A DNA stretch of 20,733 nucleotides from an uncultured Duganella sp. (GTDB taxonomy: Bacteria > Pseudomonadota > Gammaproteobacteria > Burkholderiales > Burkholderiaceae), in NCBI GenBank assembly GCA_946482335.1, contig CAMLRG010000086.1, forward strand, positions 1 through 20,733. The letters are read 5' to 3'. Below are positions 2,413 through 20,733 of the stretch, piece after piece. Each line of letters opens with the position of its first letter. Position 1 is the stretch's first letter. A program made the translations under genes and the position numbers. Under the pieces are notes generated by a model. That model saw nothing but the letters and a program-made list of their open reading frames with translations, ran no database searches and had not been told where the DNA came from.

Positions 2413-3801
2413 GTGTATTCACAGGCGCAAATCGATCCGGTCGTCAGTTTCCTGAACACGCAAGGTGAAGCAGTCCGCGGCACCATCGTGACGCTCCAGC
2501 GCAAATCGCTGGTGATGGAAGTCTATAACCCCTATTCCATTGTCCAGGTCAGCGAAGTGTTAAACGAGCTGACGGTACGCATGGGCACGGCCAGCGCCTA
2601 CATCGGCAAGGCGGTGGTGATCAGCATGGTCAACACCGGCTTGACCGCGGTGGTGTCCGTGACCCTGATTGACGAATGGCGCGAGCTGAGCGAAGTGGTG
2701 CTGCTGCCCGGCGCCGTGGGGCGCGAGGCGAGCAAGTTCGTGCTCGACTGGGATGACCGCTTCCGCATCCGGCGCGACTACCAGATTGCCGTCAACGAAT
2801 CGCGCGCCTACCTGGCCGAGGTGGCGCGCTGGGTCGAGCAGGTCGACATGTCCGATTCGCTGCCCAAGGAAGGCGGGCGCTTGCGCGCCGACGTGTTCTA
2901 CGAGCTGGCCGAACCGCTGATCCTGCGCGTGCGCCGCTATTTCGACGACTTGAACAAGGAAGCCGGGATGGTCGAGCAGGAAGCGGCCGCCGCCCACCGT
3001 GCCTTTGCCCAGGGTGCGCTGCATCCGCTGATCCTGCGCGCCCCGTTCGTGTTCCGTACCTTCAGCAAGCCGCTGGGCTACGCCGGCGACTATGAGATGG
3101 TGAACCAGATCCTGGGCGATCCGCGCCAGGGGCCGAGCACCTACTTCCAGATCGTCAATGCCGCCTTCCTGCAGACGGCGGTGGCGGTGGCGCACCGCAA
3201 CCGGATCGATATCCTGGTCGATTTCCTGAAGCGCCATGCCGACGCGGCGCGCCGTACCGGGCGTCCTTTCCGCGTGCTGAACGTGGGCTGCGGCCCGGCC
3301 CAGGAAATCCAGCGCTTCCTGCGCGAGTACGACGAGCCGCACTGGCTGTCGTTCGAACTGGTCGACTTCAGCGAGGAAACGCTGGCCTGGACGCGCGGCC
3401 AGTTGAGCGCGATCGGCGCCGGGCTGGCGCGCCAGCCCGACATCCGCTTCGTGCAGGATTCCGTGCATAACCTGCTGAAGCGCCGCACCGACGGGCCGCA
3501 AGTGGGGGCCGATTTCGATGTGGTGTACTGCGCCGGCCTGTTCGACTACCTGTCCGACAAGGTGTGCAGCCGCCTCCTCAGTTATTTCGCTTCCTGCATG
3601 CGCAGCGGCGGGCGCCTGCTGGTGACCAACGTCCACAGCAGCAACCCGGAACGCCCGGGCATGGAACATTTGCTGGAGTGGTACCTGATCTACCGCGATG
3701 AAGCCAAGATGGACCAGCTGCTGCCGCCGCAGTCGCGTGAGCGCACCACCTATGTCGATGCGACCGGCGTCAATGTATTTGCCGAAGCGTCGCTGCCATG
3801 A
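2413..3801 (+). CDS. phcB: PhcB-like SAM-dependent methyltransferase (3-hydroxy fatty acid methyl ester signal synthase)
   Basis: A 462-residue protein starting at GTG. Residues about 15-90 look like a PilZ-like beta-barrel (RGTIVTLQRKSLVMEVYNP) but lack a clear RxxxR c-di-GMP motif. The middle carries the family-typical LGYAGDYEMVNQIL (221-234). A class I methyltransferase core follows, with VLNVGCGPA (288-296) as the SAM-binding motif I and LVDFSEETL (316-324) as motif II. This matches the family annotated as extracellular factor 3-hydroxypalmitic acid methyl ester biosynthesis protein, in which PhcB methylates a 3-hydroxy fatty acid to make the Ralstonia quorum-sensing signal. The following genes are PhcS/R/Q-like, which strongly supports the call. 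Whether the acyl chain is C14, C16 or other cannot be told. The start has a weak ribosome binding site, and no other start exists after the in-frame stop at 2383. The stop overlaps the next ATG (ATGA). Confidence 0.85.
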   Translation: MYSQAQIDPVVSFLNTQGEAVRGTIVTLQRKSLVMEVYNPYSIVQVSEVLNELTVRMGTASAYIGKAVVISMVNTGLTAVVSVTLIDEWRELSEVVLLPGAVGREASKFVLDWDDRFRIRRDYQIAVNESRAYLAEVARWVEQVDMSDSLPKEGGRLRADVFYELAEPLILRVRRYFDDLNKEAGMVEQEAAAAHRAFAQGALHPLILRAPFVFRTFSKPLGYAGDYEMVNQILGDPRQGPSTYFQIVNAAFLQTAVAVAHRNRIDILVDFLKRHADAARRTGRPFRVLNVGCGPAQEIQRFLREYDEPHWLSFELVDFSEETLAWTRGQLSAIGAGLARQPDIRFVQDSVHNLLKRRTDGPQVGADFDVVYCAGLFDYLSDKVCSRLLSYFASCMRSGGRLLVTNVHSSNPERPGMEHLLEWYLIYRDEAKMDQLLPPQSRERTTYVDATGVNVFAEASLP

Positions 3802-5174
3802 CTGGCCCGGCACCGTTTGTGGCACCGCCGTTCGTGGCCCCGCACCTGCACAAGGCCTATGAAGCCGATTTGCGCGCCTACCGGCTGCGCTTCAGCCGTG
3901 GCGGGGCGTGGACGGCGATCGCCCTGGTGCTGCTGGGCATCGGGCTCGATTACAGCCTGTACCGCGAGCACCTGACCGAGTTTGCGCTGGCGCGGGTGCT
4001 GGTGTCGTTCGGGATCCTGGCCATCATCGGCCTGATGCGCCGGCCATGGGGGGCGCAGCACGTGGAAGCCATGAGCTTCACCTGGCTGATGCTGCCGCAA
4101 GTGATGATCGCCTGGATGATCGCCAGCACCGAAGGCGCCGGATCGATCTATTATGCGGGCCTGAACCTGGGCGTGTTCGCCTCGGCCATCGCATTTGCTT
4201 TCCGCATGTGGCAAAACCTGACGCTGGGCCTGCTGACCTACATGCTGTATGCGGCGGCCTGCTGGGTGCATGCGGGCAGCGACAGCATGAGCGGCGCTTT
4301 CGCCGTCAATTCGCTGCTGCTGGCCTTCAGCGCCATTGCCAGCGCCGTGTGCACCTATTACAACGAGCAGGCACGCCTCAACCTGTTCCAGCTCAAGGCC
4401 GAACTGGCCGACAAGAACGCCCAGCTGGAAGCCAACAACCGCAGCCTGGCCGAAATCAAGGGCCAGATGCTGCAGCAGGAAAAGATGGCCGCCCTCGGCA
4501 CCCTGGCCGCCGGCTTGCTGCACGAGGTGAACAATCCGGTCAACTTCTGCATGATGGCGATCGATATCGCGCTGGAAGAGCCGGGCGCCAAGAGCAGCGA
4601 AGTGCTGTACGAATGCCTGACCGACGCCAAGTCGGGCATGCAGCGCGTGCAGTACATCGTGTCGGATTTGAAGACCTTCGCCTACCGCAAGTCCGGTACC
4701 GACCACGAGAGCGCCCAATTCCTGTTCGAGCGCGCGCTGGAATCGTCGGTGCGCCTGGTGGGCCATGAAATCAAGGGCATCAAGGTCCAGCGCCACCTGC
4801 AGCCAGACACCCTGGTGCGCGGCGACGAAGCGGCCATCATCGGGGTGCTGATCAACCTGTTGAGCAATGCCGCCCTGGCCATGCGCAAGGGCGCCACCAG
4901 CGGGCCGACCATCGACATCTACGCCGAAGCGCGCGGCGAGCGCCTGAAGGTCACGGTGCGCGACAATGGCCCGGGCATCGCGCCGGAAAACATCGGCCGC
5001 GTGTTCGAGCCCTTCTTCACCACGCGCGAAGTGGGGCAGGGCCTGGGCCTGGGCTTGAGCATCTGCTACAGCGTGATCCAGCGCCATGGCGGCTTGCTGG
5101 CGGTCGAGAGCGTGCCGGGCGAATGGACACAGTTCAGTTTCGATTTGCCGCGCGTCACGGGAGGCGAGAAATGA
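3798..5174 (+). CDS. phcS: PhcS-like membrane sensor histidine kinase
   Basis: A 458-residue protein. Six hydrophobic segments lie at about residues 37-51, 64-80, 93-110, 117-135, 138-157 and 168-187, with little sequence between them, so the ligand is probably sensed within the membrane. A coiled-coil-like linker (190-228) leads to the phosphoacceptor box AGLLHEVNNPVNF with H242. The N box (LINLLSNAALAM), G1 (DNGPGIAP) and G2 (GLGLGLS) of the ATPase domain are all present, so an active kinase is expected. In Ralstonia, PhcS senses the methyl ester made by PhcB and signals through PhcR/PhcQ to the regulator PhcA. The same role is inferred here from gene order and architecture. It overlaps both neighbours by ATGA, implying translational coupling. 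Confidence 0.85.
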   Translation: MTGPAPFVAPPFVAPHLHKAYEADLRAYRLRFSRGGAWTAIALVLLGIGLDYSLYREHLTEFALARVLVSFGILAIIGLMRRPWGAQHVEAMSFTWLMLPQVMIAWMIASTEGAGSIYYAGLNLGVFASAIAFAFRMWQNLTLGLLTYMLYAAACWVHAGSDSMSGAFAVNSLLLAFSAIASAVCTYYNEQARLNLFQLKAELADKNAQLEANNRSLAEIKGQMLQQEKMAALGTLAAGLLHEVNNPVNFCMMAIDIALEEPGAKSSEVLYECLTDAKSGMQRVQYIVSDLKTFAYRKSGTDHESAQFLFERALESSVRLVGHEIKGIKVQRHLQPDTLVRGDEAAIIGVLINLLSNAALAMRKGATSGPTIDIYAEARGERLKVTVRDNGPGIAPENIGRVFEPFFTTREVGQGLGLGLSICYSVIQRHGGLLAVESVPGEWTQFSFDLPRVTGGEK

Positions 5175-6289
5175 GCGAACGCCCACAGCCCGCCACGGTG
5201 CTGTACGTCGACGACGAAGAGTTGGCGCGCAAGTATTTCGCGCGCGCGGTGGAGGGCGACTACACCGTGCTGACCGCGCCCGGCGTGGACGAGGCCTTGG
5301 AAATCCTGCGCCAGCCGGACAGCGAGGTCGACGTGCTGGTGACCGATTACCGCATGCCGGGCCGGGTCGGCGGCGAACTGCTGCGCCAGGTGGAACGCGA
5401 CTATCCGCACCTGGTGCGCATCCTGGTGACCGCCTACGCCGACAAGGAAGTGCTGCTGGAGACCATCAATGGCGGCGACATTTTCCGCATCCTGGAAAAG
5501 CCGCTGGACACCGGCACCGTGCGCGACGCCTTGCGCCTGGCCAGCCTCAATGCGCGCGAACGCGCGATGCGCCGCCAGAGCCTGCTGGCGATCGAGGAAA
5601 CCGTGGCCTTCCTGGCGCACGAACTGAATACGCCGCTGGCCACCATCGCCAATTTCGCGCGCAACATCCAGCGCCGCGTCAATGGCCAGGGGCCGGACAA
5701 TGGCTTGCCGCTGAAAGCCGATATCGGCAATGCCGCGGCGCACATGAACGACAATGCGCGCTACTGCCTGTCGGTGCTGTCCTCGTTCGTCGAATCGGTC
5801 AAGCGCGCCAGCGTGGTGCCGGCGGCGCGCCTGGCCAACGGCAGCGCGCAGCAAATGGTGACGGCGCTGCTGGGCGTATATCCGCTGACGCCGCAGCAGC
5901 GCAACATCATCGAAGTGGCGGTGCAGGGCGACTTTACCGTGCGCGCCTCGCCCAACTGTGTGGCGCTGGTGCTGGCTTCGCTGCTGAGCAATGCGCTGCG
6001 CGCGCTGCAAGAGCATCCTGAGCCCCGGATCAGGATCACCGTGGGCGTGGCAGACCGCCCCTACATCATCGTGGAAGACAACGGCCCGGGCATTGCGCCG
6101 GCGCTGCTGAACCGCCTGCTGCTGGACCCCGTGTCCATGCATGGCAGCGAGGGCGGCAGCGGCTGGGGGCTGATCTTCTGCAACCGCGTGATGCAATCGT
6201 TCGGCGGCCACCTGCGGGTGCAGTCGGAACAGGGTTGCTCCACGACCGTCACCATGAATTTCCCGGATTTAGAGAAGGAACCAGCATGA
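5171..6289 (+). CDS. phcR: PhcR-like response regulator with C-terminal histidine-kinase-like domain
   Basis: A 372-residue protein. The receiver domain spans residues about 8-125, with acidic pocket D14/D15, phosphoacceptor D59 (VTDYRMPG), T88 and K110-P111. A kinase-like module follows, with H150 in the box FLAHELNTPL, an N box (ASLLSNALRAL), G1 (DNGPGIAP) and G2 (GSGWGLIF). A receiver placed in front of a kinase is the unusual layout described for PhcR. The ATG at 5171 overlaps the phcS stop and follows GGGAGGCGAG, a good ribosome binding site. The ATP-lid region looks short, so whether it autophosphorylates or acts as a regulated phosphatase or sink is open. The stop overlaps the next start. 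Confidence 0.85.
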   Translation: MSERPQPATVLYVDDEELARKYFARAVEGDYTVLTAPGVDEALEILRQPDSEVDVLVTDYRMPGRVGGELLRQVERDYPHLVRILVTAYADKEVLLETINGGDIFRILEKPLDTGTVRDALRLASLNARERAMRRQSLLAIEETVAFLAHELNTPLATIANFARNIQRRVNGQGPDNGLPLKADIGNAAAHMNDNARYCLSVLSSFVESVKRASVVPAARLANGSAQQMVTALLGVYPLTPQQRNIIEVAVQGDFTVRASPNCVALVLASLLSNALRALQEHPEPRIRITVGVADRPYIIVEDNGPGIAPALLNRLLLDPVSMHGSEGGSGWGLIFCNRVMQSFGGHLRVQSEQGCSTTVTMNFPDLEKEPA

Positions 6290-7281
6290 CAGAAAAAGAA
6301 ACGGCACGAAGCGCCCCGGCGATCCTGTACGTCGACGATGAGGCGACCGCCCTGAAATACTTCCAGCGGGCCCTCGGTTCGCTGGCGCCGGTCTACGTGG
6401 CCGAGTCGGTGGAAGAGGGCAAGCGCATGCTCGACGAGCATGCGGAAGAAATCGCCGTGCTGGTGTCGGACCAGCGCATGCCCGGCGCCTATGGCAATGA
6501 ATTGCTGTTCTATGCCTGGGACCGCTACCCGCACATCGTGCGCATCCTGACCACGGCCTATTCGGAACTGGAGCATACGGTCGACGCGGTCAACCAGGGC
6601 CAGATCCACCGCTACATCCAGAAGCCGTGGGATATCGCCGCGCTGCGCATGGAATTGAAGCAGGCGCTGGCCCTGGCCAAGCTGCAGAAGGAGCATTCGC
6701 AGCTGCTGCGCGAAAAGCTGCTGGTGCGCCAGAAGCAGGCCGTGGCCAGCCGCATCGGCACCCTGTACACGCTGGCGGCCAGCCTGTCGGCCGCGGGCCC
6801 CTCCTGCGTGCCGGTGGAAAGCTACCTGGCCGGCGCCCTCAGCGCCGGCATGACGCCGCCGGAACCGGACTGGCTGATGCTGGACCATTCGGACTTGATC
6901 AGTTCGGAAGCGTTCCGCAGCGCTGCCTTCGGCTGCGCCGTGCGCGACCACCTGCTGGAGCTGGAGCGCCGCTATGCCGACGCCCAGCCGTCGCATGCCC
7001 TGGCGCTGCTGGCGGAAACCTTCGGCCCGACCTTCCGCGCCATCGATGCGAGCCAGGCGCTGTTCCTGCAGGCATCGCAGCTGACGGAATTCCTGGAAAC
7101 CCCGACCAGTGCGCCGGTGTCGTCGCAGCACGCGTTCTGGCTGGCTTGCCTGTTGTGGATGGGCAAGCGCGGCGCCTCGCTGCAGATGGCCAGCAGCGCC
7201 CAGGGCGTCGAATGCCGCCTGGTGCAGGCCGACGCCGCCCTGACCCCGTCGCAGCTGGCGGCCTGGGTCGAGCAATTCTGA
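6286..7281 (+). CDS. phcQ: PhcQ-like response regulator with uncharacterised C-terminal domain
   Basis: A 331-residue protein. The N-terminal receiver (about 12-130) has the acidic pair D17/D18, phosphoacceptor D62 (VSDQRMPG), T89/T90 and K113-P114, all consistent with function. A helical stretch follows (about 121-160). The remaining roughly 170 residues show no DNA-binding, GGDEF or intact kinase motifs that I recognise. They might be a degenerate ATPase-like or helical output domain. Position as fourth gene of the cluster and receiver similarity to the preceding PhcR-like protein support PhcQ. The ribosome binding site GAGAAGGA lies before the ATG, which overlaps the phcR stop. The sequence after the stop holds a 6-bp GC hairpin (CGGGCG/CGCCCG, about 7281-7305) without a T-run, so termination there is uncertain. 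Confidence 0.75.
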   Translation: MTEKETARSAPAILYVDDEATALKYFQRALGSLAPVYVAESVEEGKRMLDEHAEEIAVLVSDQRMPGAYGNELLFYAWDRYPHIVRILTTAYSELEHTVDAVNQGQIHRYIQKPWDIAALRMELKQALALAKLQKEHSQLLREKLLVRQKQAVASRIGTLYTLAASLSAAGPSCVPVESYLAGALSAGMTPPEPDWLMLDHSDLISSEAFRSAAFGCAVRDHLLELERRYADAQPSHALALLAETFGPTFRAIDASQALFLQASQLTEFLETPTSAPVSSQHAFWLACLLWMGKRGASLQMASSAQGVECRLVQADAALTPSQLAAWVEQF

Positions 7282-7376
7282 CGGGCGGGCCCCAGGCGCC
7301 CGGGCCGCTGGCGTGCGCTCGGCGCCGGCCGGCTTCGCTAGCATGGCTGCAGGACCGATGCAAAAGGAGGTGCACC

Positions 7377-7559
7377 ATGCCACGCGGAGCCAGCCCGAAA
7401 CGGGAACGGGAATACAAGGAACTCAAGCAGGAGTTCAAGCAGGAAGGACGCTATCGCGGCCGCGAAGAGGAAGTGGCGGCGCGCATCGTCAACAAGCAAC
7501 GCCGCGAACACGGCGAAACCAAGGCGCAAAAGTCGCGCGCCGGGCGTAAAGTGCATTAA
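7377..7559 (+). CDS. Small charged conserved protein (60 aa)
   Basis: A near-perfect ribosome binding site, AGGAGGT at 7365-7371, sits 5 nt before the ATG. The protein begins MPRGASPKRE and continues with highly charged, helix-prone sequence (QEFKQEGRYRGREEEVAARIVNKQRREHGE). It resembles a widespread family of short proteins starting MPRGxSPKRE and containing an AAR-VNK stretch. These are sometimes loosely labelled plasmid stabilisation protein, but no firm function is known to me. High charge and the absence of membrane segments suggest a soluble, perhaps nucleic-acid-associated, protein. It lies 95 nt after phcQ and is probably expressed on its own or by read-through. Confidence 0.75.
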   Translation: MPRGASPKREREYKELKQEFKQEGRYRGREEEVAARIVNKQRREHGETKAQKSRAGRKVH

Positions 7560-7600
7560 GCAATGCACTTCGAGAAAGACTTTCTGGCAAGTTTTTGAGG

Positions 7601-7652
7601 GAGAGTCGGTTATACTCTCAGGCATCGGAATACCGGAGCCGCCATGCCTGAG
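7601..7652 (+). promoter_or_regulatory. Overlapping hairpins and possible -10 box before the hybrid kinase gene
   Basis: GAGAGT (7601-7606) pairs with ACTCTC (7614-7619). CTCAGGCAT (7617-7625) is a perfect 9-bp inverted match to ATGCCTGAG (7644-7652), which contains the start codon. The ribosome binding site (GGAG, 7635-7638) lies in the 18-nt loop. The two stems share three bases and cannot both form. TATACT at 7611-7616 also looks like a -10 box, but no -35 box is well placed. If that promoter is used, transcription starts inside the second stem and the hairpin would not be complete in the RNA. Confidence 0.35.
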
Positions 7653-10600
7653 GAAGCCTCGTCCGCACCGCATCGCTGGCCCAGCCTGGGCGCCGGGCTG
7701 GCCGGGTTGCTGGCCACTGTCGCACTGCTGCTCACTGTGCTCGTGCTGCTGCTGATGGAGCGGCACGTGGGCCCCGCACTCAAGCGCAGCCTGGGCGTCG
7801 GCCTGGCGCAGCGCGCCGCCGCCACGGCCGGGCAGCTCGACGTGGCGATGTTCGAACGCTACCGTGAAGTGCAATTGCTGGCCGCCCGGCTGGCATGGCC
7901 GGCCGACAGCGGCGCCGCGTCCACGCTGCGCCGCCAGCTCGATGAGGTCCAGCGCAGCTATCCGCTGTATGCCTGGCTCGGCCTGGCCGACCGCGGCGGC
8001 CAGGTGCGCGCTGCCAGCGGCGGCCTGCTGGAAGGCGCCAGCGTGGCGCAACAGGCGTGGTGGCGCGATGCGCCGCGCGGCGTCTACCTGCACGATGTGC
8101 ATCCCGATCCCGGTCTGGGGCGCCTGTTGCCCGGCGGCCGGCCGCTGCAGGTGGTCGACCTGGCCTTCCCACTCTACGATGCCGGCGGCCACGCGACGGG
8201 CGTGCTGGCGGCGCAGCTGAACTGGCACTGGGTGCGCCAGGTGACGGCGCACGACACCCTGGTGCTGGCGCGCAGCGGCACCGTGCTGGCGGGCCCCGAC
8301 GCCTGGCTGGGCAAGACGCTGGACAGTGCCAGTGTGCGCGAGGCCGCGCGCCAGGCGGCGGGCCATGTCGAGGAGATCGGCGACGATGGCAAGGCTTACC
8401 TGGTGGGTTTTGCCCGCACGCGCGGTTACGATGGCTATCCCGGGCTGGGCTGGAGCGTGCTGGTGCGGCAGGATGCCGCCAGCGCGCTGGCGCCGCTGCG
8501 CCGGCTGCAAACCCTGGCGGCCCTGGCGGGCGCCGGGCTGGCCGTGCTGCTCGGCGCGGCCGGCTGGTTTGGCGCGCGCCGCCTGACGCAGCCGGTGCTG
8601 CGGGCGGCGCAGGCGCTGCGCGCCGCCGGGGCTGCCGACGCCGCCGCGCTGCCGCCGGCACTGCCGCCACCGGCCGCCTGGCGCGAGCTGCGCAGCCTGT
8701 ATGCCGCTTGCCAGGCGCTGTTGCAGCGCGAACATGCCCAGCGCCAGCAACTGGCCCGCGACCAGGCGGCTGGGCAGCAGCGCCTGGCGGCGCGCGGCGC
8801 GGCATTGGAAGCAGCCGCGGGCGCCAACGCCGCGCAACTGGAAGCGGTGCTGCACGCGGCGCGGGAAGCGGTCCTGATCGTCACCCTGGACGGCGTGGTC
8901 GTCGACTGGAACCGGCGCGCCGGCGAAATCTTTGGCTGGGAACGCGCGGCGGCGCTCGGCATGGCGCTCGAGCAGCTGCTGCACACGGGACCTGGCTTGC
9001 TGGCCGGCCTGGCCGACGGCAGCATCGGCCAGCCGGTGGCCTTGGCCGGCTGGCGGCGCGGCGGTGCCCGCTTCGATGCCGAGCTGTCGCTGGTGCGCTA
9101 TCCGGTCGAGGCGGGCGCGGACGCGGCGCGCTACGCGCTGTGCGTGACCGACGTGACGGAAAGCCGGCGCAGCGAAGAAGCGGCGGCCGCCCAACTGTCG
9201 GCGCTGGCCAGCGCCCAGCTGGAACTGGCGGAAAAGGAGCGCTTCCTGCGCACGGTGGCCGACCACAATCCCGCCGCCATCGCGTATGTCGACCGCGACG
9301 AAATCTTCAGTTTTGCCAACCGCAGTTGCCAGGGCTGGCTGGGCGTCGACCCGGCCAGCATGATCGGGCGCAGCGTCGAAGAGGTACTGGGCGAGGCGCA
9401 GTACGCCCAGTCGGAACGGCACGTGGGCGCCGCGCTGCGCGGCGAGCGCGTGCACTTCGAGTCCGACGTTGCCGGCACGGCCGGCACGCGCCACTTCATG
9501 ACCGACTATATCCCCGACACCGATGTGCAAGGGGCGGTGTGCGGCTTCCATATCGTGGCGCTCGATATCACGGCGCGGCGGCGCGCCGAATTGCAGCAGC
9601 AGGAAGCCAGCCGCGCCAAGAGCGCCTTCCTGGCCAATATGAGCCACGAGATCCGCACCCCGATGAATGCCGTGCTGGGCATCGGCCAGCTGCTCGAGCG
9701 CACGCCGCTGAACGCCGAGCAGCGCGAGTACGTGCGCCTGATCCGCGCCTCGGGCAGCGCCTTGCTGGCGGTGGTCAACGATATCCTCGATTTGTCGAAG
9801 ATTGAAGCGGGCAAGCTGGCGGTGGTGGCGGCGCCGTTCCAGCTCGACGAGCTGGCCGCATCGGTGGCGGCCGCGATGCAGGCGGCCAGCGTCGGCAAGC
9901 GGCTGGACTTGCTGCTGACGCAGGATCCCGACATGCCGCAAGCGCTGGTGGGCGATGTGCAGCGCCTGCGGCAGGTGGCGCTGAACCTGGTCGGCAATGC
10001 CATCAAGTTCACCGCCGAAGGCGAGGTGCGCGTGCACCTGGGCACCAGCGGGCCGGGCAGTGCGGTGGAAATCCTGCAGCTCACCGTCAGCGACAGCGGC
10101 ATCGGCATGAGCAGCGAACAATTGGGCCGCCTGTTCAATCCCTTCGAGCAAGCCGACACCTCCACCGCGCGCCGCTTTGGCGGCACCGGACTGGGCTTGT
10201 CGATCTCGCAGCAGTTGGTGCAGTTGATGGGCGGCGCCATCACGGTCAGCAGCGAAGCGGGCCGCGGCAGCGAATTCGTGGTCTCGGTACCGCTGCAATT
10301 GGCGCAGCGCCAGCGTGCCGACGCGGCGGACGATGGCGCACTGGCCGGCCTGCGCGTGCTGCTGGTGGACGACCATGTGCCGACCCTGCATTACCTGGAA
10401 GCCCAGTTGGCGCGCTGGGGCTGTGCGGTCGAGGCGTGCGCCGCCATCCCGGCGGCAACGGCGGCGCGCTGGGAGGTGGCGCTGGTGGACTCGGTCCTGC
10501 TGGACGCGCAAGCCGGCGCGCCGGCGCCGGCGCTGTGCGGCGCGGCGTGCGTGGTGGCGCTGAACCGCAGCCTGGACCGGCAGCCGGGCGCCGGCGAGTC

Positions 10601-11630
10601 CGCGGCGCTGGCCAAGCCGGTGCTGCCGGCGGTGCTGCGCGAACTGCTGCGCAGCTTGCGCGGGCAAGGCGCGCCGGGCGCCGCGCCGCCAGCCGGGGCG
10701 GCAGCGGGTGCGCTGGCCGCGGTCCCGCCGGCGCTGCCGGTGGCCGGCAGCGCGGCGCTGCGCGGCGCCCGCATCCTCTTGGTGGAGGATAACCCGACCA
10801 ACCAGCTCGTGACGAGCAGCATGCTGGAGCCGTTCGGCGCCGTGGTGACGGTGGCCGCGCACGGCCAGCAGGCGCTGGACTTGCTGCGTGCCGGCCCGGC
10901 CGCCTTCGACCTGGTGCTGATGGATGTGCAGATGCCGGTGATGGATGGTTTCGAGGCGACGCGCGCGCTGCGGCGGCAGCTGGGCTTGCGCCTGCCGGTA
11001 CTGGCGATGAGTGCCGGCGTGCTCGATACGGAACAGGCCCTTTGCCGTGAATGCGGCATGGACGGCTTCATCCCCAAGCCAGTGGACCAGGCCTACCTGC
11101 TGGCCACCATGGCCGCCCACCTGGGCCGCACCGCGGGCGCGGGCGCAAAGGCCGGTGACGCAGCCGGCGACGCAAAAGAGCTGCCGGCGCTGGACCTGCA
11201 GCCCGGCGTGTTCGCGGTGCGCAAGCTGTTGTCCATGATAGGCAACGGGCCGCAGCGGCAGGATATCGTGCACCTGGTGGGACGTGTGGTGCGCCAGTCG
11301 CAGGCGGAATTCGAGGCGGCGCGCGCGCGGTGGCAGGCGGGCGATGCGACCGGCGCCGCCGCCGCGCTGCATGCGTTGCGCGGCGGCGTGGGCAGCCTCG
11401 GTGCGCGCCAGTTCGCCGACGCCACGCTGGTGCTGGAACAAGCGCTGCGCAGCGGCGACAGCGCCGCCGCCGCCAGCCAGTTCGCCGCGGCCCAGGCGGC
11501 GTTGTCGGCAACGCTGGCGGCAGCGGCGCGCTGGCTGCAGGCCGAACAGGCGATGCCGGACGCCGGCGTGCAGCAGGATTTGCAGACCGCGATGCACACC
11601 CTGGCCGATATGCTGCATGAGCGCCGATGA
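7644..11630 (+). CDS. Hybrid sensor histidine kinase (Cache-PAS-PAS-HK-REC-REC-HPt)
   Basis: A 1328-residue inner-membrane phosphorelay protein. Order of parts: membrane helix about 15-38; periplasmic Cache-like domain about 40-285; second helix about 287-307; HAMP-like and coiled region; PAS about 398-505; PAS about 532-645; kinase with H668 (MSHEIRTPMNAVLG); ATPase domain with N781 (LNLVGNAIKF), DSGIGM and GGTGLGLS; divergent receiver about 900-1010 with D949; canonical receiver about 1041-1160 with LLVEDNPTNQ and D1094 (LMDVQMPVMDGF); and a C-terminal HPt domain with H1243 (LHALRGGVGSLGA). All elements of a His-Asp-His relay are present. The final partner is not in the window. Position next to the phc-like operon suggests, but does not show, input into the same network. 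The stop is followed by a GC hairpin. Confidence 0.88.
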   Translation: MPEEASSAPHRWPSLGAGLAGLLATVALLLTVLVLLLMERHVGPALKRSLGVGLAQRAAATAGQLDVAMFERYREVQLLAARLAWPADSGAASTLRRQLDEVQRSYPLYAWLGLADRGGQVRAASGGLLEGASVAQQAWWRDAPRGVYLHDVHPDPGLGRLLPGGRPLQVVDLAFPLYDAGGHATGVLAAQLNWHWVRQVTAHDTLVLARSGTVLAGPDAWLGKTLDSASVREAARQAAGHVEEIGDDGKAYLVGFARTRGYDGYPGLGWSVLVRQDAASALAPLRRLQTLAALAGAGLAVLLGAAGWFGARRLTQPVLRAAQALRAAGAADAAALPPALPPPAAWRELRSLYAACQALLQREHAQRQQLARDQAAGQQRLAARGAALEAAAGANAAQLEAVLHAAREAVLIVTLDGVVVDWNRRAGEIFGWERAAALGMALEQLLHTGPGLLAGLADGSIGQPVALAGWRRGGARFDAELSLVRYPVEAGADAARYALCVTDVTESRRSEEAAAAQLSALASAQLELAEKERFLRTVADHNPAAIAYVDRDEIFSFANRSCQGWLGVDPASMIGRSVEEVLGEAQYAQSERHVGAALRGERVHFESDVAGTAGTRHFMTDYIPDTDVQGAVCGFHIVALDITARRRAELQQQEASRAKSAFLANMSHEIRTPMNAVLGIGQLLERTPLNAEQREYVRLIRASGSALLAVVNDILDLSKIEAGKLAVVAAPFQLDELAASVAAAMQAASVGKRLDLLLTQDPDMPQALVGDVQRLRQVALNLVGNAIKFTAEGEVRVHLGTSGPGSAVEILQLTVSDSGIGMSSEQLGRLFNPFEQADTSTARRFGGTGLGLSISQQLVQLMGGAITVSSEAGRGSEFVVSVPLQLAQRQRADAADDGALAGLRVLLVDDHVPTLHYLEAQLARWGCAVEACAAIPAATAARWEVALVDSVLLDAQAGAPAPALCGAACVVALNRSLDRQPGAGESAALAKPVLPAVLRELLRSLRGQGAPGAAPPAGAAAGALAAVPPALPVAGSAALRGARILLVEDNPTNQLVTSSMLEPFGAVVTVAAHGQQALDLLRAGPAAFDLVLMDVQMPVMDGFEATRALRRQLGLRLPVLAMSAGVLDTEQALCRECGMDGFIPKPVDQAYLLATMAAHLGRTAGAGAKAGDAAGDAKELPALDLQPGVFAVRKLLSMIGNGPQRQDIVHLVGRVVRQSQAEFEAARARWQAGDATGAAAALHALRGGVGSLGARQFADATLVLEQALRSGDSAAAASQFAAAQAALSATLAAAARWLQAEQAMPDAGVQQDLQTAMHTLADMLHERR

Positions 11631-11680: not shown

Positions 11681-11720
11681 TCGCAACGGGATCGCAACGG
11701 TACCCGCGCCGTGCTAACAT
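11681..11720 (+). promoter_or_regulatory. Possible protease promoter with an 11-bp-phased direct repeat
   Basis: TCGCAACGG occurs twice, at 11681-11689 and 11692-11700, an exact 9-bp direct repeat with a period of 11 bp. TAACAT at 11715-11720 could be a -10 box. With a 17-bp spacer the -35 position falls on TCGCAA of the second repeat, a poor consensus match. A weak or activator-dependent promoter with a regulator bound at the repeats is therefore plausible. Inference from pattern only. Confidence 0.35.
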
Positions 11721-11752
11721 GGCCGCACCGCTTATTTCAGAAGTTGCGCACC

Positions 11753-13465
11753 ATGAGTCTCGTTTCCGGCAATATTGCAATTGATGCTTTGATTTACAGC
11801 AGCTGGAAGTCCACCCCGGGCACGCCGCTCTCCCTGACCTACAGTTTCCTGCTCGCGCCGCCCGCCGATGCCAGTGCCGATGACCGCGACGGCTTCGCGC
11901 CGATGACGGCCACGCAGCGCCAGGGTGCGCGCGATGCGCTCAAGCTGTGGTCCGACGTGGCCAACCTGACATTTACTGAGGTGTCAGGCAACGGCAACCT
12001 GCAGTTCGGCACCAACCACCAGACCAACAGCAGCGGCTATGCCTACTTGCCGACGGCCGGCATCGACACCACCCAGATGTACCTGGACAAGGATGCCAGC
12101 TACAACCAGAATTACACGCCGGGCACGTATGGCCCGAGCGTGATGCAGCACGAGATCGGCCACATGCTGGGATTGAAACATCCTGGCAATTACGACAGCA
12201 GCGGCGGCACGGCCGACGGCCCCTTCCTGCCGGCCGACCAGGACAATGGCGACTATACGCAAATGTCGTACACGCCGCCCACCATCTATGCGAGCACCGG
12301 GCGCTACGCCGCCACGCCGATGCTGTACGACGTGCTGGCCATCCAGCACCTGTACGGCGCCAACATGGGCTTCCGCACGGGCGACGACGTGTACAGTTTC
12401 GCCAGCGCCGAGGCGCCGCGCTGCATCTGGGACGCGGGCGGCACCAATACCTTCGACTTTTCCGCCTGCACGGCGCGCGTCACCATCGACCTGCGCCCGG
12501 GCAGCTTCAGTTCCACCGGGCCGGGCTACCACAACATCGCGCTGGCGTTCGGGGTGACGGTGACGCGCGCCATGGCGGGCAATTACGGCTCGCAGATCTA
12601 TGTCAGCGCGGCCGGCAGCGCGATCACCGGCGGGGCCGGCGCGGACAAGGTCTATCTGGGCAGCGGCAGCGACACGGTGGTGGCGGGCGCCGGCGACGAT
12701 TCGGTGGTGTTCAGCAAGACCTTCGCCAGTTACAGCGTGCAGCGCGGCGTGTCGGGTGTGACGGTGGTGGGCGAGGGCATCGACAAGCTGGAAGGGGTGG
12801 AAACCCTGGTGTTCAGCGACCGCAGTGTGAACGTGGCCGATTTGCCGGTGCAGTCGGCGGTCCTCGGTTCGTCCGGGAATGACCGCATCGTGGCGGCGGC
12901 CGGCAGCGAAACCATCGATGGCGGCGGCGGCCGCGACACCGTGGTGCTGGCCGGCGCGCGCGCCGGCTTCACCGTGCAGGCCGGTGGCGGCGGCTTCACC
13001 GTGGCCGACAACGCCGGCAATGGCGGCACCGACCTGCTGCTGAACGTGGAAAAACTGCATTTTACCGACCAGGACTTGTCGTTCGAGATCAATGGGCCGG
13101 CCGGCCAGGCTTACCGCCTGTACCAGGCCACCTTCGACCGCGTGCCGGACCTGGCGGGCCTGGGTTTCTGGGTCGGCGCCATGGAAGGCGGCGTGACGCT
13201 GGAAGCGGCGGCGGCCAGCTTCATCCAGAGTGCGGAATTCATCGCCACCTATGGCGGCGTGAGCAACCGTTCCTTCGCCAGCCTGCTGTACCAGCACACG
13301 CTGCACCGGGCGCCGGACAGCGCGGGCCTGGACTGGTGGACCGCGCGGCTGGACGACGGCGCGGCGCGCAGCTCGGTGCTGGCAGCGTTTTCGGAGTCGC
13401 CGGAGAACCAGGCGCAGGTGATCGGCGCCATCCAGAACGGTATCGCCTTCATCCCTTACGGCTGA
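11753..13465 (+). CDS. Serralysin-like M10 metalloprotease with RTX-like repeats and DUF4214-type C-terminus
   Basis: A 570-residue protein starting MSLVSG. The zinc site HEIGHMLGLKHP has H133, E134, H137 and H143, with a Met-turn M171 (QMSYT), which is the metzincin signature. Glycine/aspartate-rich nonapeptide-like calcium-binding repeats follow (GGAGADKVY, LGSGSDTVV, AGAGDDSVV at about 302-328, and GSSGNDRIV and GGGGRDTVV later). The last 115 or so residues (about 453-565) resemble DUF4214, with two repeated units each containing LYQ-T-R-PD-AGL-(F/D)W. There is no N-terminal signal peptide, so secretion by a type I system using a C-terminal signal is expected. No such transporter genes are in the window, and no inhibitor gene is adjacent. 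Predicted role: secreted protein degradation. Confidence 0.88.
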   Translation: MSLVSGNIAIDALIYSSWKSTPGTPLSLTYSFLLAPPADASADDRDGFAPMTATQRQGARDALKLWSDVANLTFTEVSGNGNLQFGTNHQTNSSGYAYLPTAGIDTTQMYLDKDASYNQNYTPGTYGPSVMQHEIGHMLGLKHPGNYDSSGGTADGPFLPADQDNGDYTQMSYTPPTIYASTGRYAATPMLYDVLAIQHLYGANMGFRTGDDVYSFASAEAPRCIWDAGGTNTFDFSACTARVTIDLRPGSFSSTGPGYHNIALAFGVTVTRAMAGNYGSQIYVSAAGSAITGGAGADKVYLGSGSDTVVAGAGDDSVVFSKTFASYSVQRGVSGVTVVGEGIDKLEGVETLVFSDRSVNVADLPVQSAVLGSSGNDRIVAAAGSETIDGGGGRDTVVLAGARAGFTVQAGGGGFTVADNAGNGGTDLLLNVEKLHFTDQDLSFEINGPAGQAYRLYQATFDRVPDLAGLGFWVGAMEGGVTLEAAAASFIQSAEFIATYGGVSNRSFASLLYQHTLHRAPDSAGLDWWTARLDDGAARSSVLAAFSESPENQAQVIGAIQNGIAFIPYG

Positions 13466-18067: not shown

Positions 18068-19374
18068 ATGGCGCAGAGAGTTATTACCGCGCTACGGCGC
18101 CCGGGGAGGCGTATGCCCCATTGACCGGGCGTCACGAGGCGCGCGTTTGCATCATCGGGGCGGGCTTCGCCGGACTGGCGACGGCGGTGTCGCTGATGGA
18201 GCACGGCGAGCGCGATGTCGTCCTGCTCGAGGCCGAACGCGTCGGCCACGGCGCGTCCGGCCGCAATGGCGGCTTTGTTTTCGGTGGATATTCGCTGGAC
18301 GAACAGGCGTTGCTCGCCACTGTCGGGCCGGAGCAGGGCAGGCGGCTTTACGGGCTGACGCTGGGCGCGGTCGACCAGATCCGGCGCCGCATCGGCCAGT
18401 ACGGCATCGATTGCGACGCCACGCATGGCGGCATCTACCTGGCCAATTGGTTCGACGACCCGCGCGTACTGGACGCGCGGCAGCGTTTCATGCGCGAGCA
18501 CCTGGGCGTGGAATGGCAGCGCGTCACGCCGGCCGATTTCGCCGAACTGGCGCGCAGTGAGCGCTATTTCGGCGCGCTGTACGAAGAGAATGCCTTCCAT
18601 TTCCATCCGCTGAAATATGCCCAGGGGCTGGCGCGCGCCTTGCGCGATGGCGGAGTCCGGGTGCACGAGGGCAGCCGCGTGACGTCCATCGAAGCGCGCC
18701 CGGCCGCATTGGCCACGCACGCAACGCCGGCGCCGCCCCACGGCGGCGGCTGGCGCGTCGCCACCGTGGACGGTGAAGTATTGTGCGACCAGGTCGTGGT
18801 GTGCTGCGGCGGCTATATCGAACGCCTGTATCCCGCCCTGGCCGGCGCCATCCTGCCGATCGCCACTTACGTGATGGTGACCGAACCGCTGGATGGCCGC
18901 ATGCCGCAAGCCCTGGCGACCGACGCCGCGATCTACGACACGCGCTTCGCCTTCGACTATTACCGGCCTTTGCAGGACAGCCGCCTGCTGTGGGGCGGCC
19001 GCATTTCGATCCGTTCCCGCAGTGCGGAAGAGGTGGCGCGCCTGCTGTATGACGACATGCTGAAGGTCTACCCGCAACTGGCGGGCACCAGGGTCGATTA
19101 CGCCTGGAGCGGCTTGATGAGCTATGGCCGCCACAAGATGCCGCAGCTGGGCAAACTCCCGAATGGCGTCTGGTATGGCATGGGTTTCGGCGGCCATGGC
19201 GTCGGCCCCACCTCATTGGCTGGCGACGTGTTGTCCGCCGCCCTGATGGGCGAGCTGAGCAAGATCGACCAGTTCGCCGCCTGGGGCCTCCCCACCACCG
19301 GCGGTCCCGCCGGCCTGCTGGCCGCCCAGCTTACCTATTGGTACTACGAGTTGCGCGACTGGATGCGGCAGTAG
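18064..19374 (+). CDS. FAD-dependent oxidoreductase, DAO family (PuuB/OrdL-like)
   Basis: A 436-residue flavoprotein of the D-amino-acid-oxidase-like family. The dinucleotide-binding motif GAGFAG is at 32-37 with E56 ending the second strand. GHGASGRNGGF (61-71) and the C-terminal GFGGHGVGPT are characteristic of the gamma-glutamylputrescine oxidase/OrdL group. The internal MVTEPLDGRMP and LLWGGRIS stretches also fit. It likely oxidises an amine or N-substituted amino acid with release of an aldehyde and hydrogen peroxide. The exact substrate is not predictable, and no other putrescine-pathway genes are near. It is the last gene of the plus-strand series, and the lower-G+C islet begins directly after it. 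Confidence 0.82.
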   Translation: MNGAESYYRATAPGEAYAPLTGRHEARVCIIGAGFAGLATAVSLMEHGERDVVLLEAERVGHGASGRNGGFVFGGYSLDEQALLATVGPEQGRRLYGLTLGAVDQIRRRIGQYGIDCDATHGGIYLANWFDDPRVLDARQRFMREHLGVEWQRVTPADFAELARSERYFGALYEENAFHFHPLKYAQGLARALRDGGVRVHEGSRVTSIEARPAALATHATPAPPHGGGWRVATVDGEVLCDQVVVCCGGYIERLYPALAGAILPIATYVMVTEPLDGRMPQALATDAAIYDTRFAFDYYRPLQDSRLLWGGRISIRSRSAEEVARLLYDDMLKVYPQLAGTRVDYAWSGLMSYGRHKMPQLGKLPNGVWYGMGFGGHGVGPTSLAGDVLSAALMGELSKIDQFAAWGLPTTGGPAGLLAAQLTYWYYELRDWMRQ

Positions 19375-19400
19375 GGGCTATATGCCAATTTTCGGGAAAA

Positions 19401-19460
19401 GTCTCGTTCGGACTCGCCCAGTCTCTTTTGGTCTCATTTGAACTTTTCAGGTCTCGTTCG
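19401..19460 (+). repeat. 10-bp-phased GTCTC repeat array, upstream copy
   Basis: Consecutive 10-bp units start at 19401, 19411, 19421, 19431, 19441 and 19451. Four fit GTCTCNTTYG (GTCTCGTTCG, GTCTCTTTTG, GTCTCATTTG, GTCTCGTTCG). The units at 19411 (GACTCGCCCA) and 19441 (AACTTTTCAG) are degenerate. The period of one helical turn places every motif on the same DNA face. The array ends about 40 bp before the start codon of the following gene, where an operator would be expected. Confidence 0.7.
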
Positions 19461-19501
19461 AGTCAAAGCTGGTATGCCTTGTCGAGAGAAGGGGAAATAC
19501 C

Positions 19502-19969
19502 ATGAGACCGATCCTATTTAGCCTGCCTGCTTCGCTTGAAACTTATCAAGCGTTGGGAAACTTCATGTATGAACACGGCTTGAAGCAGGAAATGTACGTG
19601 CTGGTGGATTCCATCGTTAACGAATGGATGACCAGGTTCAAGGAACAGGAAAGCCATGCGTCGGCTTCTACACTCGACGGGTACCAATGGAAATGTCTAT
19701 TTCTGCCTGATGGCACCACTTTGCGTACGGTCTACAAGCGTAAGAGTTATCTGGCCCATGTGAAGGGTAGCGATCTGTGCTTTGAAGGGCGGAGCGTCTC
19801 GCCGCGTCAGTTTGCAAACGAGGTGGCGGACTGTGCGCGAAACGCTTGGCGAACCATATGGTTGCGCTTCCCGGACGAAGTCGAATGGAAACGAGCAATG
19901 CCCCTACGAAAGAAAGTGATGGAAAACGAGACCAAACGAGACCGCACAAGACCCAAAAGGACCCGATAA
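19502..19969 (+). CDS. Putative DNA-binding protein: RHH-like N-terminus and RAMA/DUF4357-like C-terminus
   Basis: A 155-residue protein with a good ribosome binding site (AAGGGG at 19489-19494, 7 nt before ATG). Residues about 3-45 (ILFSLPASLETYQALG, then GLKQEMYVLVDSIVNEWM) look like a ribbon-helix-helix domain: a short strand and two helices. Residues about 60-130 (LFLPDGTTLRTVYKRKSY, then FEGRSVSPRQFANEV, then ARNAWRTIWLRFP) resemble the small RAMA/DUF4357-type domains found with restriction-modification and other DNA-binding proteins. The C-terminal tail is very basic (KRDRTRPKRTR) and is encoded inside the downstream repeat array. Lower G+C than its neighbours suggests transfer. Function is inferred, and both domain calls are by eye. 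Confidence 0.6.
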   Translation: MRPILFSLPASLETYQALGNFMYEHGLKQEMYVLVDSIVNEWMTRFKEQESHASASTLDGYQWKCLFLPDGTTLRTVYKRKSYLAHVKGSDLCFEGRSVSPRQFANEVADCARNAWRTIWLRFPDEVEWKRAMPLRKKVMENETKRDRTRPKRTR

Positions 19970-19982
19970 GGCGGAACGGGAC
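19923..19982 (-). repeat. 10-bp-phased GAGAC repeat array, downstream inverted copy
   Basis: Six consecutive 10-bp units end at 19932, 19942, 19952, 19962, 19972 and 19982. Their last bases read GAGAC, GAGAC, AAGAC, AGGAC, AAGGC and GGGAC, and four of the five following units begin with C. On the minus strand the best units read GTCTCGTTTT and GTCTCGTTTG, matching the upstream array. The array overlaps the last 47 bases of the gene and runs past its stop, degrading outward. Confidence 0.7.
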
Positions 19983-20060
19983 CTTTTCTCGAAAACGAAT
20001 AAGAGCACCGGACACTCGCGGTTCGCCTGCGGAATTGCTGTTGGTTTGCTAACGTTTGAA

Positions 20061-20097
20061 CCCGAGCCCGGCGGGCCGCTCCTAGGCGGCCATCGGG
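20061..20097 (+). other. GC-rich two-level hairpin before the ybiT-like gene
   Basis: GGCCGC (20074-20079) pairs with GCGGCC (20086-20091) around a 6-nt loop. Outside it CCCGA (20061-20065) pairs with TCGGG (20093-20097). No T-run follows. It may terminate transcription arriving from the islet gene or be a regulatory site, since it sits just upstream of the promoter of the next gene. Confidence 0.35.
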
Positions 20098-20106
20098 TGG
20101 GCGCGG

Positions 20107-20112
20107 TATAAT
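20107..20112 (+). promoter_or_regulatory. Likely -10 box of the ybiT-like gene
   Basis: A perfect TATAAT lies 34 bp before the ATG at 20147, which would give a leader of about 27 nt. The -35 position (about 20084-20089, AGGCGG) matches the consensus poorly and falls inside the GC-rich hairpin. Confidence 0.45.
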
Positions 20113-20146
20113 GCCCGATTCGCTTGATTCCCACTTTTATTCCAGC

Positions 20147-20733
20147 ATGCTTTCTACCGCTAACATCACCATGCAGTTCGGCGCCAAGCCGCTGTTCGAG
20201 AACATTTCCGTCAAGTTTGGCGACGGCAACCGCTACGGCCTGATCGGGGCGAACGGTTGCGGCAAGTCCACGTTCATGAAGATCCTGGGTGGCGACCTCG
20301 AACCGTCGGCCGGCAACGTCAGCCTGGACGCCAACGAGCGCCTGGGCAAGCTGCGCCAGGACCAGTTCGCGTATGAAGAGATGCGCGTGCTGGACGTGGT
20401 CATGATGGGCCACACCGAGATGTGGGAAGCCATGCAAAAGCGTGACGCCATCTACGCCAACCCGGAAGCGACCGACGACGACTACATGGAAGCGGCCGAA
20501 CTGGAAGGCAAGGTCGCCGAATACGATGGCTACACCGCCGAAGCCCGCGCCGGCGAGCTGCTGCTGGGCGCCGGCATCGACATCAGCCTGCACCAGGGCC
20601 CGATGAGCGCCGTGGCGCCGGGCTGGAAGCTGCGCGTGCTGCTGGCCCAGGCCCTGTTCTCCAACCCGCACATCCTGCTGCTGGACGAACCGACCAACAA
20701 CCTGGACATCAACACCATCCGCTGGCTGGAAGA
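20147..20733 (+). CDS. ybiT: ABC-F family ATPase, YbiT type, 3' end outside window
   Basis: The first 195 codons are present and the gene runs off the right edge. The start [21 protein letters not shown] and what follows closely match E. coli YbiT as I remember it. The Walker A motif is GANGCGKST (34-42). The ABC signature is replaced by the YbiT-typical [18 protein letters not shown], followed by Walker [16 protein letters not shown] proteins lack membrane domains and act on ribosomes as translation factors, or in some members give antibiotic resistance. YbiT belongs to the housekeeping group. The ATG at 20147 corresponds to the E. coli start. No strong ribosome binding site is seen. Confidence 0.93.

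Follow-up and report, generated by a model that had tools for sequence, protein, structure and literature searches.

A ribbon-helix-helix plus RAMA-like gene family with phased decamer arrays: putative self-regulated operators carried as small units in Oxalobacteraceae and other bacteria

In this study, we ask what a small gene enclosed by two mirrored arrays of ten-base-pair units does, and how it came to occupy its place, in 20,733 nucleotides of DNA from an uncultured Duganella sp. (GenBank assembly GCA_946482335.1, contig CAMLRG010000086.1; this whole stretch is hereafter called the window). The islet lies between a dadA-like oxidoreductase gene on its 5′ side (stop at 19374) and an ABC-F-like ATPase gene on its 3′ side (start at 20147), both named by eye, and direct reading of the sequence gives six decamers in GTCTC phase 5′ of the gene and six inverted decamers at the gene end (Table 1). 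We think it rather likely, with a probability of about two in three, that the gene encodes a self-repressing regulator with an operator code of its own, carried as a small dispersing unit.

An earlier note on this DNA had described GTCTC-type units recurring every 10 bp upstream of the gene at six positions, four of them good matches, and this description is borne out. GTCTC is exact at 19401, 19421, 19431 and 19451, with GACTC and AACTT at the remaining two positions, and lag-10 identity over 40-nt windows reaches 23/40 in the upstream arm against a shuffle mean of 12.8 (P = 0.0006), a value attained at one other place, 8433, within the whole window. The downstream array, which the same note had as six inverted units decaying outward, is equally real (28/40 against a shuffle mean of 13.7, reached by 0 of 5000 shuffles), its units reading GAGAC at 19928 and 19938, AAGAC at 19948, AGGAC at 19958, AAGGC at 19968 and GGGAC at 19978, with a match that decays outward; its placement after the gene, however, needed correction: the gene extends into the right arm, which encodes residues 142–155 and contains the stop codon. 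Neither arm has raised identity at lags 8, 9, 11 or 12 in the same 40-nt windows and shuffles. The arms match each other in inverted orientation (23/30 against a shuffle mean of 16.5, P = 0.001), and a pair of 13-mers forms imperfect inverted ends of the islet. The lower G+C between the arrays is likewise confirmed, at 0.514 for 19501–20000 against 0.608 in each neighbouring 500-base bin. Rfam gave no family at the gathering threshold and a tRNA search found none. Elsewhere in the window, we noted by eye a row of genes resembling histidine kinases and response regulators (3798–11630), including a 1328-residue hybrid kinase, and at 11711–13465 a 584-residue protein with a zinc-protease-like motif and internal repeats of 27–30 bp, perhaps an RTX-like secreted protease.

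Table 1. Features of the islet, in positions of the window
Feature	Position	Strand	Basis
Outer arm of the imperfect inverted repeat bracketing the islet, 13 nt	19389..19401	+	pairs with 19983–19995
Upstream decamer array, six positions (19401, 19411, 19421, 19431, 19441, 19451) at 10-bp phase	19401..19462	+	sequence, lag-10 statistics, unit map
TTTGAACT, putative promoter-like −35 element within the array	19437..19444	+	alignment of 35 upstream regions
GTCAAA, candidate −10 region (consensus GTC.AA)	19462..19467	+	alignment
Gene for the 155-residue RHH plus RAMA-like protein	19502..19969	+	ORF; 39 proteins at E ≤ 0.001; structure model
RHH domain, residues 1–54	19502..19663	+	predicted structure
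RAMA/CcrM C-terminal-like domain, residues 62–143	19685..19930	+	predicted structure
Basic protein tail NETKRDRTRPKRTR encoded by the array, residues 142–155	19925..19966	+	translation; tail types in relatives
Downstream inverted decamer array, six positions, overlapping codons 142–155 and the stop codon	19924..19985	-	sequence, repeat search, statistics
Outer arm, downstream copy	19983..19995	-	repeat search, 92% complementary to 19389–19401

The product of the gene is probably a DNA-binding protein. That it joins a ribbon-helix-helix (RHH) domain to a domain like RAMA and the CcrM C-terminus, as had been proposed from the letters alone, is supported by two structure models: the predicted structure contains the strand-helix-helix fold of about 45–55 residues that is a feature of the RHH superfamily, together with the RAMA/CcrM C-terminal fold, so that the objection of a fold with no DNA-binding domain falls away. 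Foldseek by itself returned no match at E ≤ 0.001 for either model, and the statements on fold come from a second look with VIA. The fold matches listed include many antitoxins and also MatP-matS; ParR and MetJ structures are absent among those listed, an absence that is no sign that they differ. At the level of sequence profiles, the RHH matches are weak (ORF E73 and two CopG/Arc/MetJ-family chains, E 0.54–1.1, among six matches), the RHH Pfam model is absent from the Pfam matches of 32 members, and Pfam and NCBIfam yield neither a credible family nor a RAMA/CcrM C-terminal model at E ≤ 0.1 in 69 members. DUF2924, with a best E of 0.075 in two of the 69 members, was rejected along with other weak single matches to these collections.

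Thirty-nine of 54 candidate proteins pass E ≤ 0.001, and 268 stretches in genome contigs encode relatives. The best 80 of these were kept, mostly from Massilia, Duganella, Pseudoduganella and Rugamonas, with others from Janthinobacterium, Undibacterium, Nitrosospira, Roseateles and Stenotrophobium. One of them, L066, whose start codon was not found, was dropped, and the remaining 79 loci, with start codons otherwise set by rule, make up with the window the 80 regions analysed here. Two peptide patterns, GYQWK... and PAS...TYQ, served to collect the loci; members lacking these words are missed, so that the presence of the RAMA part among those collected is to some extent built in. The loci are also akin to one another, and the P values given below therefore overstate independence. 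The family has no curated Pfam or NCBIfam name, yet within one genus group 52 of 60 genomes carry it (E ≤ 1e-25, 0 to 12 matches each). Across the order it was found in at least two of 150 genomes at E ≤ 1e-20, the query genome included, a lower bound with at most 21 candidates scored per genome. Sixteen genomes hold 1 to 16 matches each at scattered places, some genes being counted twice, so that copy numbers are approximate. Relatives were absent from viral contigs and phage records, and plasmids gave one weak match at 28% identity. The best explanation of these sequences would be a family of single genes, centred on Oxalobacteraceae, each carrying its own putative operator.

The 479 ORFs that lie within about 4 kb to either side of the gene, at the 79 loci and in the window, include no recurrent partner. 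Neighbour groups found in at least three loci belong, by eye, either to a neighbourhood shared by related species or to common families such as ABC ATPases, TonB receptors and chemoreceptors, and the gene works alone or with something elsewhere. Judged by recurrence and not by name, neither an adjacent toxin nor a ParM-type motor gene stands out as a partner in these loci. The many antitoxins among the fold matches might recall an orphan antitoxin-like RHH gene whose toxin has been lost, but with no partner recurring beside the 79 loci, drawn from the 268 stretches, we hold this to be the least probable of all the readings weighed here.

Phased arrays recur in the relatives. By lag-p self-similarity upstream of the 79 loci and the window, with windows elsewhere in the same loci as controls, lag 10 exceeds z = 3 in 57% of the 80 upstream regions against 0.000 of 400 control windows, and pooling lags 10, 20 and 21 gives a signal in 60 of 80 regions and in 12 of 240 controls. 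With other lag sets the counts are 5, 14, 4 and 7 of 80, the corresponding controls being 20, 3, 21 and 1 of 240, and the set 11/22/23 is somewhat raised. The expectation that arrays always accompany homologues of the gene thus holds for 60 regions but fails for 20, among them L004, L016, L039, L042 and L071, which have no significant array by the pooled-lag measure. When 81 regions were scanned under looser settings, period 10 came out best in 41, period 21 in 13 and period 20 in 7. A period of 21 bp, that is two helical turns per unit, is best or strong in L005, L006, L008–L010, L012, L022–L024, L026, L038 and L043, and the long arrays of L022 and L026 are arranged head to head.

The sequence of the unit changes between subfamilies. 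It is GGTCTCRTTT in the window, CTCTTATT in L002 and L003, TGTCTCGTTT in L014, L029 and L037, ACTGAAT in L019, L021, L048 and L060, CTCTGAAA in L047 and L075, TCTAGAGCGA in L054, and CAnnnGAGCn in L011. The GTCTC decamer cannot serve as a hallmark: other subfamilies carry other sequences, and one distant subfamily carries nearly the same. Between the decamers of the window and the L014 group, whose proteins are distant, one or two positions differ, so that the code is not strictly private and distant members may cross-bind. Over 68 of the 80 regions, motif distance follows protein distance, with a Mantel r that is 0.43 when computed on the N-terminal strand, 0.46 on the helices and 0.50 on the RAMA part (P = 0.001 in each case); every partial correlation remains positive, and the decamer-reading domain is not singled out. 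Together, these sequences suggest that each protein may read a decamer address of its own, most likely for self-control. TTT at 10-bp phase in many decamers would also fit arrays that are intrinsically bent DNA, acting on the promoter through phased T-tracts and not as protein sites, but this is very improbable to us in view of phased arrays that lack T-tracts of three or more (those of L054 and L011), of arms that are inverted copies of each other and of the recurrence of positions other than T.

In the window clade, the tail encoded by the array hints at the decamer code, as a lead and not as a test. A text rule assigned 13 proteins to a GTCTC type and 13 to a CTCTT type (26 of 28 aligned proteins; P0038 and P0039 were dropped), the tail being checkable against the DNA for the window and L001–L003 only. 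Positions 76, 109, 111 and 112, all in the RAMA part, fully separate the two types, with a weaker separation at RHH positions 37 and 3 (0.88 and 0.83 of 1 bit); the association is confounded with descent because only two clades are compared. According to one report, CcrM and the RAMA domain of MPND contact DNA without base-specific contacts (PMC9963953), so that a RAMA domain would suit a clamp and not a reader; the positions that fully separate the two types, which all fall in the RAMA part, point the opposite way. Since these positions lie there, and motif distance tracks RAMA slightly better than the RHH strand, the RHH domain may not be the sole reader of the decamers.

In 35 aligned upstream regions (the window and 34 loci picked by eye), the longest well-conserved stretch is the promoter-like element of Table 1, followed about 16 nt on by GTC.AA and lying between arms of differing decamers; in the window, the fifth upstream decamer position overlaps its TTGAAC box. 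A simple sigma-70 promoter scan called no site in 19300–20200. In a distant branch (Nitrosospira, Roseateles and others; L018, L027 and L067 among the loci), the decamers traverse, by eye, a near-consensus TTGAC promoter. Inverted arms (P < 0.01) that lie wholly upstream and flank the putative promoter core occur in 29 of 80 regions against 1 of 78 in the control placement, and the gene itself lies between such arms in 6 of 80, namely the window, L001, L002, L003, L047 and L075 (200 shuffles for targets; 100 for the control, which covered the upstream layout only). The window has the rarer layout, with its second arm at the 3′ end of the gene, and promoter-flanking arms are commoner. A further element, GTATA-like and followed by a G-run and a CTCCTTCTGGCAAC-like stretch, was seen by eye 5′ of the arrays in members with different decamers (L019, L021, L041, L048, L060, L028, L044, L070 and L160).

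A self-regulated operator, one of two roles put forward in the earlier note, is the best supported because the arrays overlap the conserved promoter-like element in many members; this overlap stands as observed, and from it we infer binding and repression. In such a mechanism, the product would dimerise through its RHH domain, and RHH dimers would occupy adjacent decamers along the same helical face and read them, with the RAMA-like domain adding DNA contacts. The filled arms would then bend or loop the promoter-like TTGAAC element and turn the gene off. In most relatives with two significant arms these flank the putative promoter; as the second arm of the window clade is at the 3′ end of the gene, the loop would there enclose the gene. 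Because the decamers vary between subfamilies, binding by any one protein would be largely confined to its own copies and those of close kin. A working precedent for self-repression by the islet is provided by plasmid R1, where the two halves of parC are described as lying on either side of the promoter and ParR, an RHH protein, represses the promoter loop (PMC5016525).

Arrays standing genome-wide without the gene, named beforehand as an objection, were not found in 10 genomes save for relics, one solo array and isolated matches. Two-unit patterns with at most one mismatch were run against 8, 4 and 3 genomes, together 10 distinct ones, and produced 50 tandem-pattern places, an array being able to give several. 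Family genes, pseudogenes or relics account for 38 of these places and the solo array for 3, and the other 9 are isolated; the isolated matches number 4, 2 and 3 per pattern search, and the reversed-pattern controls gave 14, 3 and 0. Among the relics, L111 (2084–2452) and L113 (1604–1999) have an array beside a family gene that is truncated, cut in L111 after the RHH-like part; both keep the RHH-like part and have no RAMA part, and in L114 the array remains and the gene is gone. The solo array (L112:1996–2066) consists of six CTCTT units with no family gene and, over 61 bp, shares 90% identity with the right arm of the islet L003 in the same genome. By eye, its neighbours are a gene for an S46-type peptidase and a pnuC-like gene, the array lying upstream of the latter. 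It could be either a relic or a genuine second target.

It is improbable, in our judgement, that the arrays form a centromere-like or nucleoid-organising site, at which the protein would condense or position DNA as ParR or MatP does and self-repression would be secondary. The layout does resemble parC as set out in two reports (PMC5016525; PMC9426499), and MatP-matS is among the fold matches, but the three patterns gave no shared genome-wide site in the 10 genomes, the 1–16 matches per genome are scattered and differ in their decamers, and no neighbour recurs that could serve as a ParM-type partner.

With regard to dispersal, copies of one unit occur at unrelated sites within a genome in relatives other than the window's own copy. 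In one genome, L048 and L060 share 90% identity over a stretch that begins about 170 nt ahead of the start codon, ends 4 nt past the stop codon and goes no further. In G029, four of five fetched regions (L159–L162) share 846–900 bp at 89.9–93.0% identity with unrelated flanks, the fifth (L163) not matching, and a 24-mer from the left end of this unit occurs at four places, all at family genes, with the L160 copy missed. Inspection of the G029 copies by eye revealed neither a target-site duplication nor terminal inverted repeats, and their right end is ragged.

The site of the islet itself varies as well. A window-type islet follows dadA in the window, L001, L003 and G008 (where it is broken), the site being occupied in four of 11 genomes compared, and in G026 and G045 a different subfamily of the same gene family lies there. 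The comparison of empty sites that had been called for shows this: the gap between dadA and the ABC-F-like gene, filled in the window and L001, is empty in G021, where the one gene directly follows the other, at a site too diverged to reveal a duplication. The dadA gap of G002 was rejected as a clean empty site; it lacks the usual end of dadA and by eye resembles a deletion. In L126 and L125 a different subfamily occupies the post-dadA place that belongs to the window-type islet in other species, which could reflect a hotspot or old divergence in place. Orthologous copies are in some pairs more diverged than their neighbours (window/L001, 75% against 83–99%; L019/L041, 80% against 93–95%) and in others not (L028/L053, 98% against 90–99%; L047/L075, 93% against 81–95%).

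The second role named in the earlier note, a small mobile unit, gains support from scattered copies of array plus gene in relatives and from an occupied and an empty dadA site; terminal repeats and duplications were not seen by eye in G029, and the window islet has imperfect inverted ends. Taken further, the arrays would be the ends of a transposable unit and the protein an end-binding factor, served in trans by a recombinase of the host or of foreign origin. We regard this as possible though doubtful: the sharp edges of the G029 and L048/L060 copies, the 24-mer confined to family genes, the filled and empty dadA gap and a number of matches that varies from 0 to 12 per genome all speak for it, but in 29 of 80 regions the arrays lie inside the unit and around the promoter and not at both ends, several copies share one neighbourhood across related species, and the neighbour survey, judged by recurrence and not by the name transposase, gave no recurrent partner, to which the ragged right end and the lack of visible terminal repeats or duplications in G029 must be added. 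In the self-repressing regulator that we prefer, arrays and gene would spread together as a unit to new sites and later be lost, leaving relic arrays. A bolder version, which we consider unlikely, is a one-gene selfish unit whose protein would recognise only its own phased arrays, silence itself and spread with them, subfamilies escaping one another by changes of decamer so that up to about 12 mutually ignoring units could share a genome; its odds are reduced by the near likeness of the decamers of two distant subfamilies.

The pairing of one modelled fold with many decamers amounts to a natural set of protein–operator pairs, in which change of RHH-type DNA specificity can be tested by swapping pairs. 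Compact self-repressing modules with distinct addresses could also serve as genetic parts. In the open-licence literature, we found no description of an RHH–RAMA protein with such arrays.

Several known systems can be set beside the islet. As in MITEs and other non-autonomous units, the unit is short and its scattered copies are sharp-edged; unlike MITEs, it carries an intact gene, and its best-resolved copies have no visible terminal inverted repeats or target duplication. Self-repression from tandem sites is the general pattern of RHH repressors of the Arc/MetJ/CopG type, with which the islet shares its fold and, probably, self-repression from tandem sites, and from which it differs in its longer arrays, mirrored arms, fused RAMA-like domain and subfamily-varying decamer. 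In contrast to MPND RAMA and the CcrM C-terminal domain, the RAMA-like domain is here fused to RHH in a protein of no credible Pfam or NCBIfam family. The view that no described system has this layout could not be maintained, because the split parC bound by the RHH protein ParR has a similar operator layout (PMC5016525). The likeness to ParR/parC of type II plasmid partition (R1, pB171) extends to an RHH protein with tandem repeats of 10 or 11 bp, to tandem repeats that flank a promoter, here a putative one, and to a repeat sequence that varies between families, the ParR of pB171 binding 10-bp repeats (PMC9426499; see also PMC5016525). Unlike ParR/parC, the islet family sits in chromosomal contigs in several copies per genome, its arms are mutually inverted, it has a RAMA-like domain, the second arm is sometimes at the 3′ end of the gene, and no recurrent neighbour is fit for the part of ParM; as no motor gene recurs beside the family genes, we do not class the islet as ParMRC. 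By analogy, it is best read as a locus that would work like the split ParR/parC operator, without ParM.
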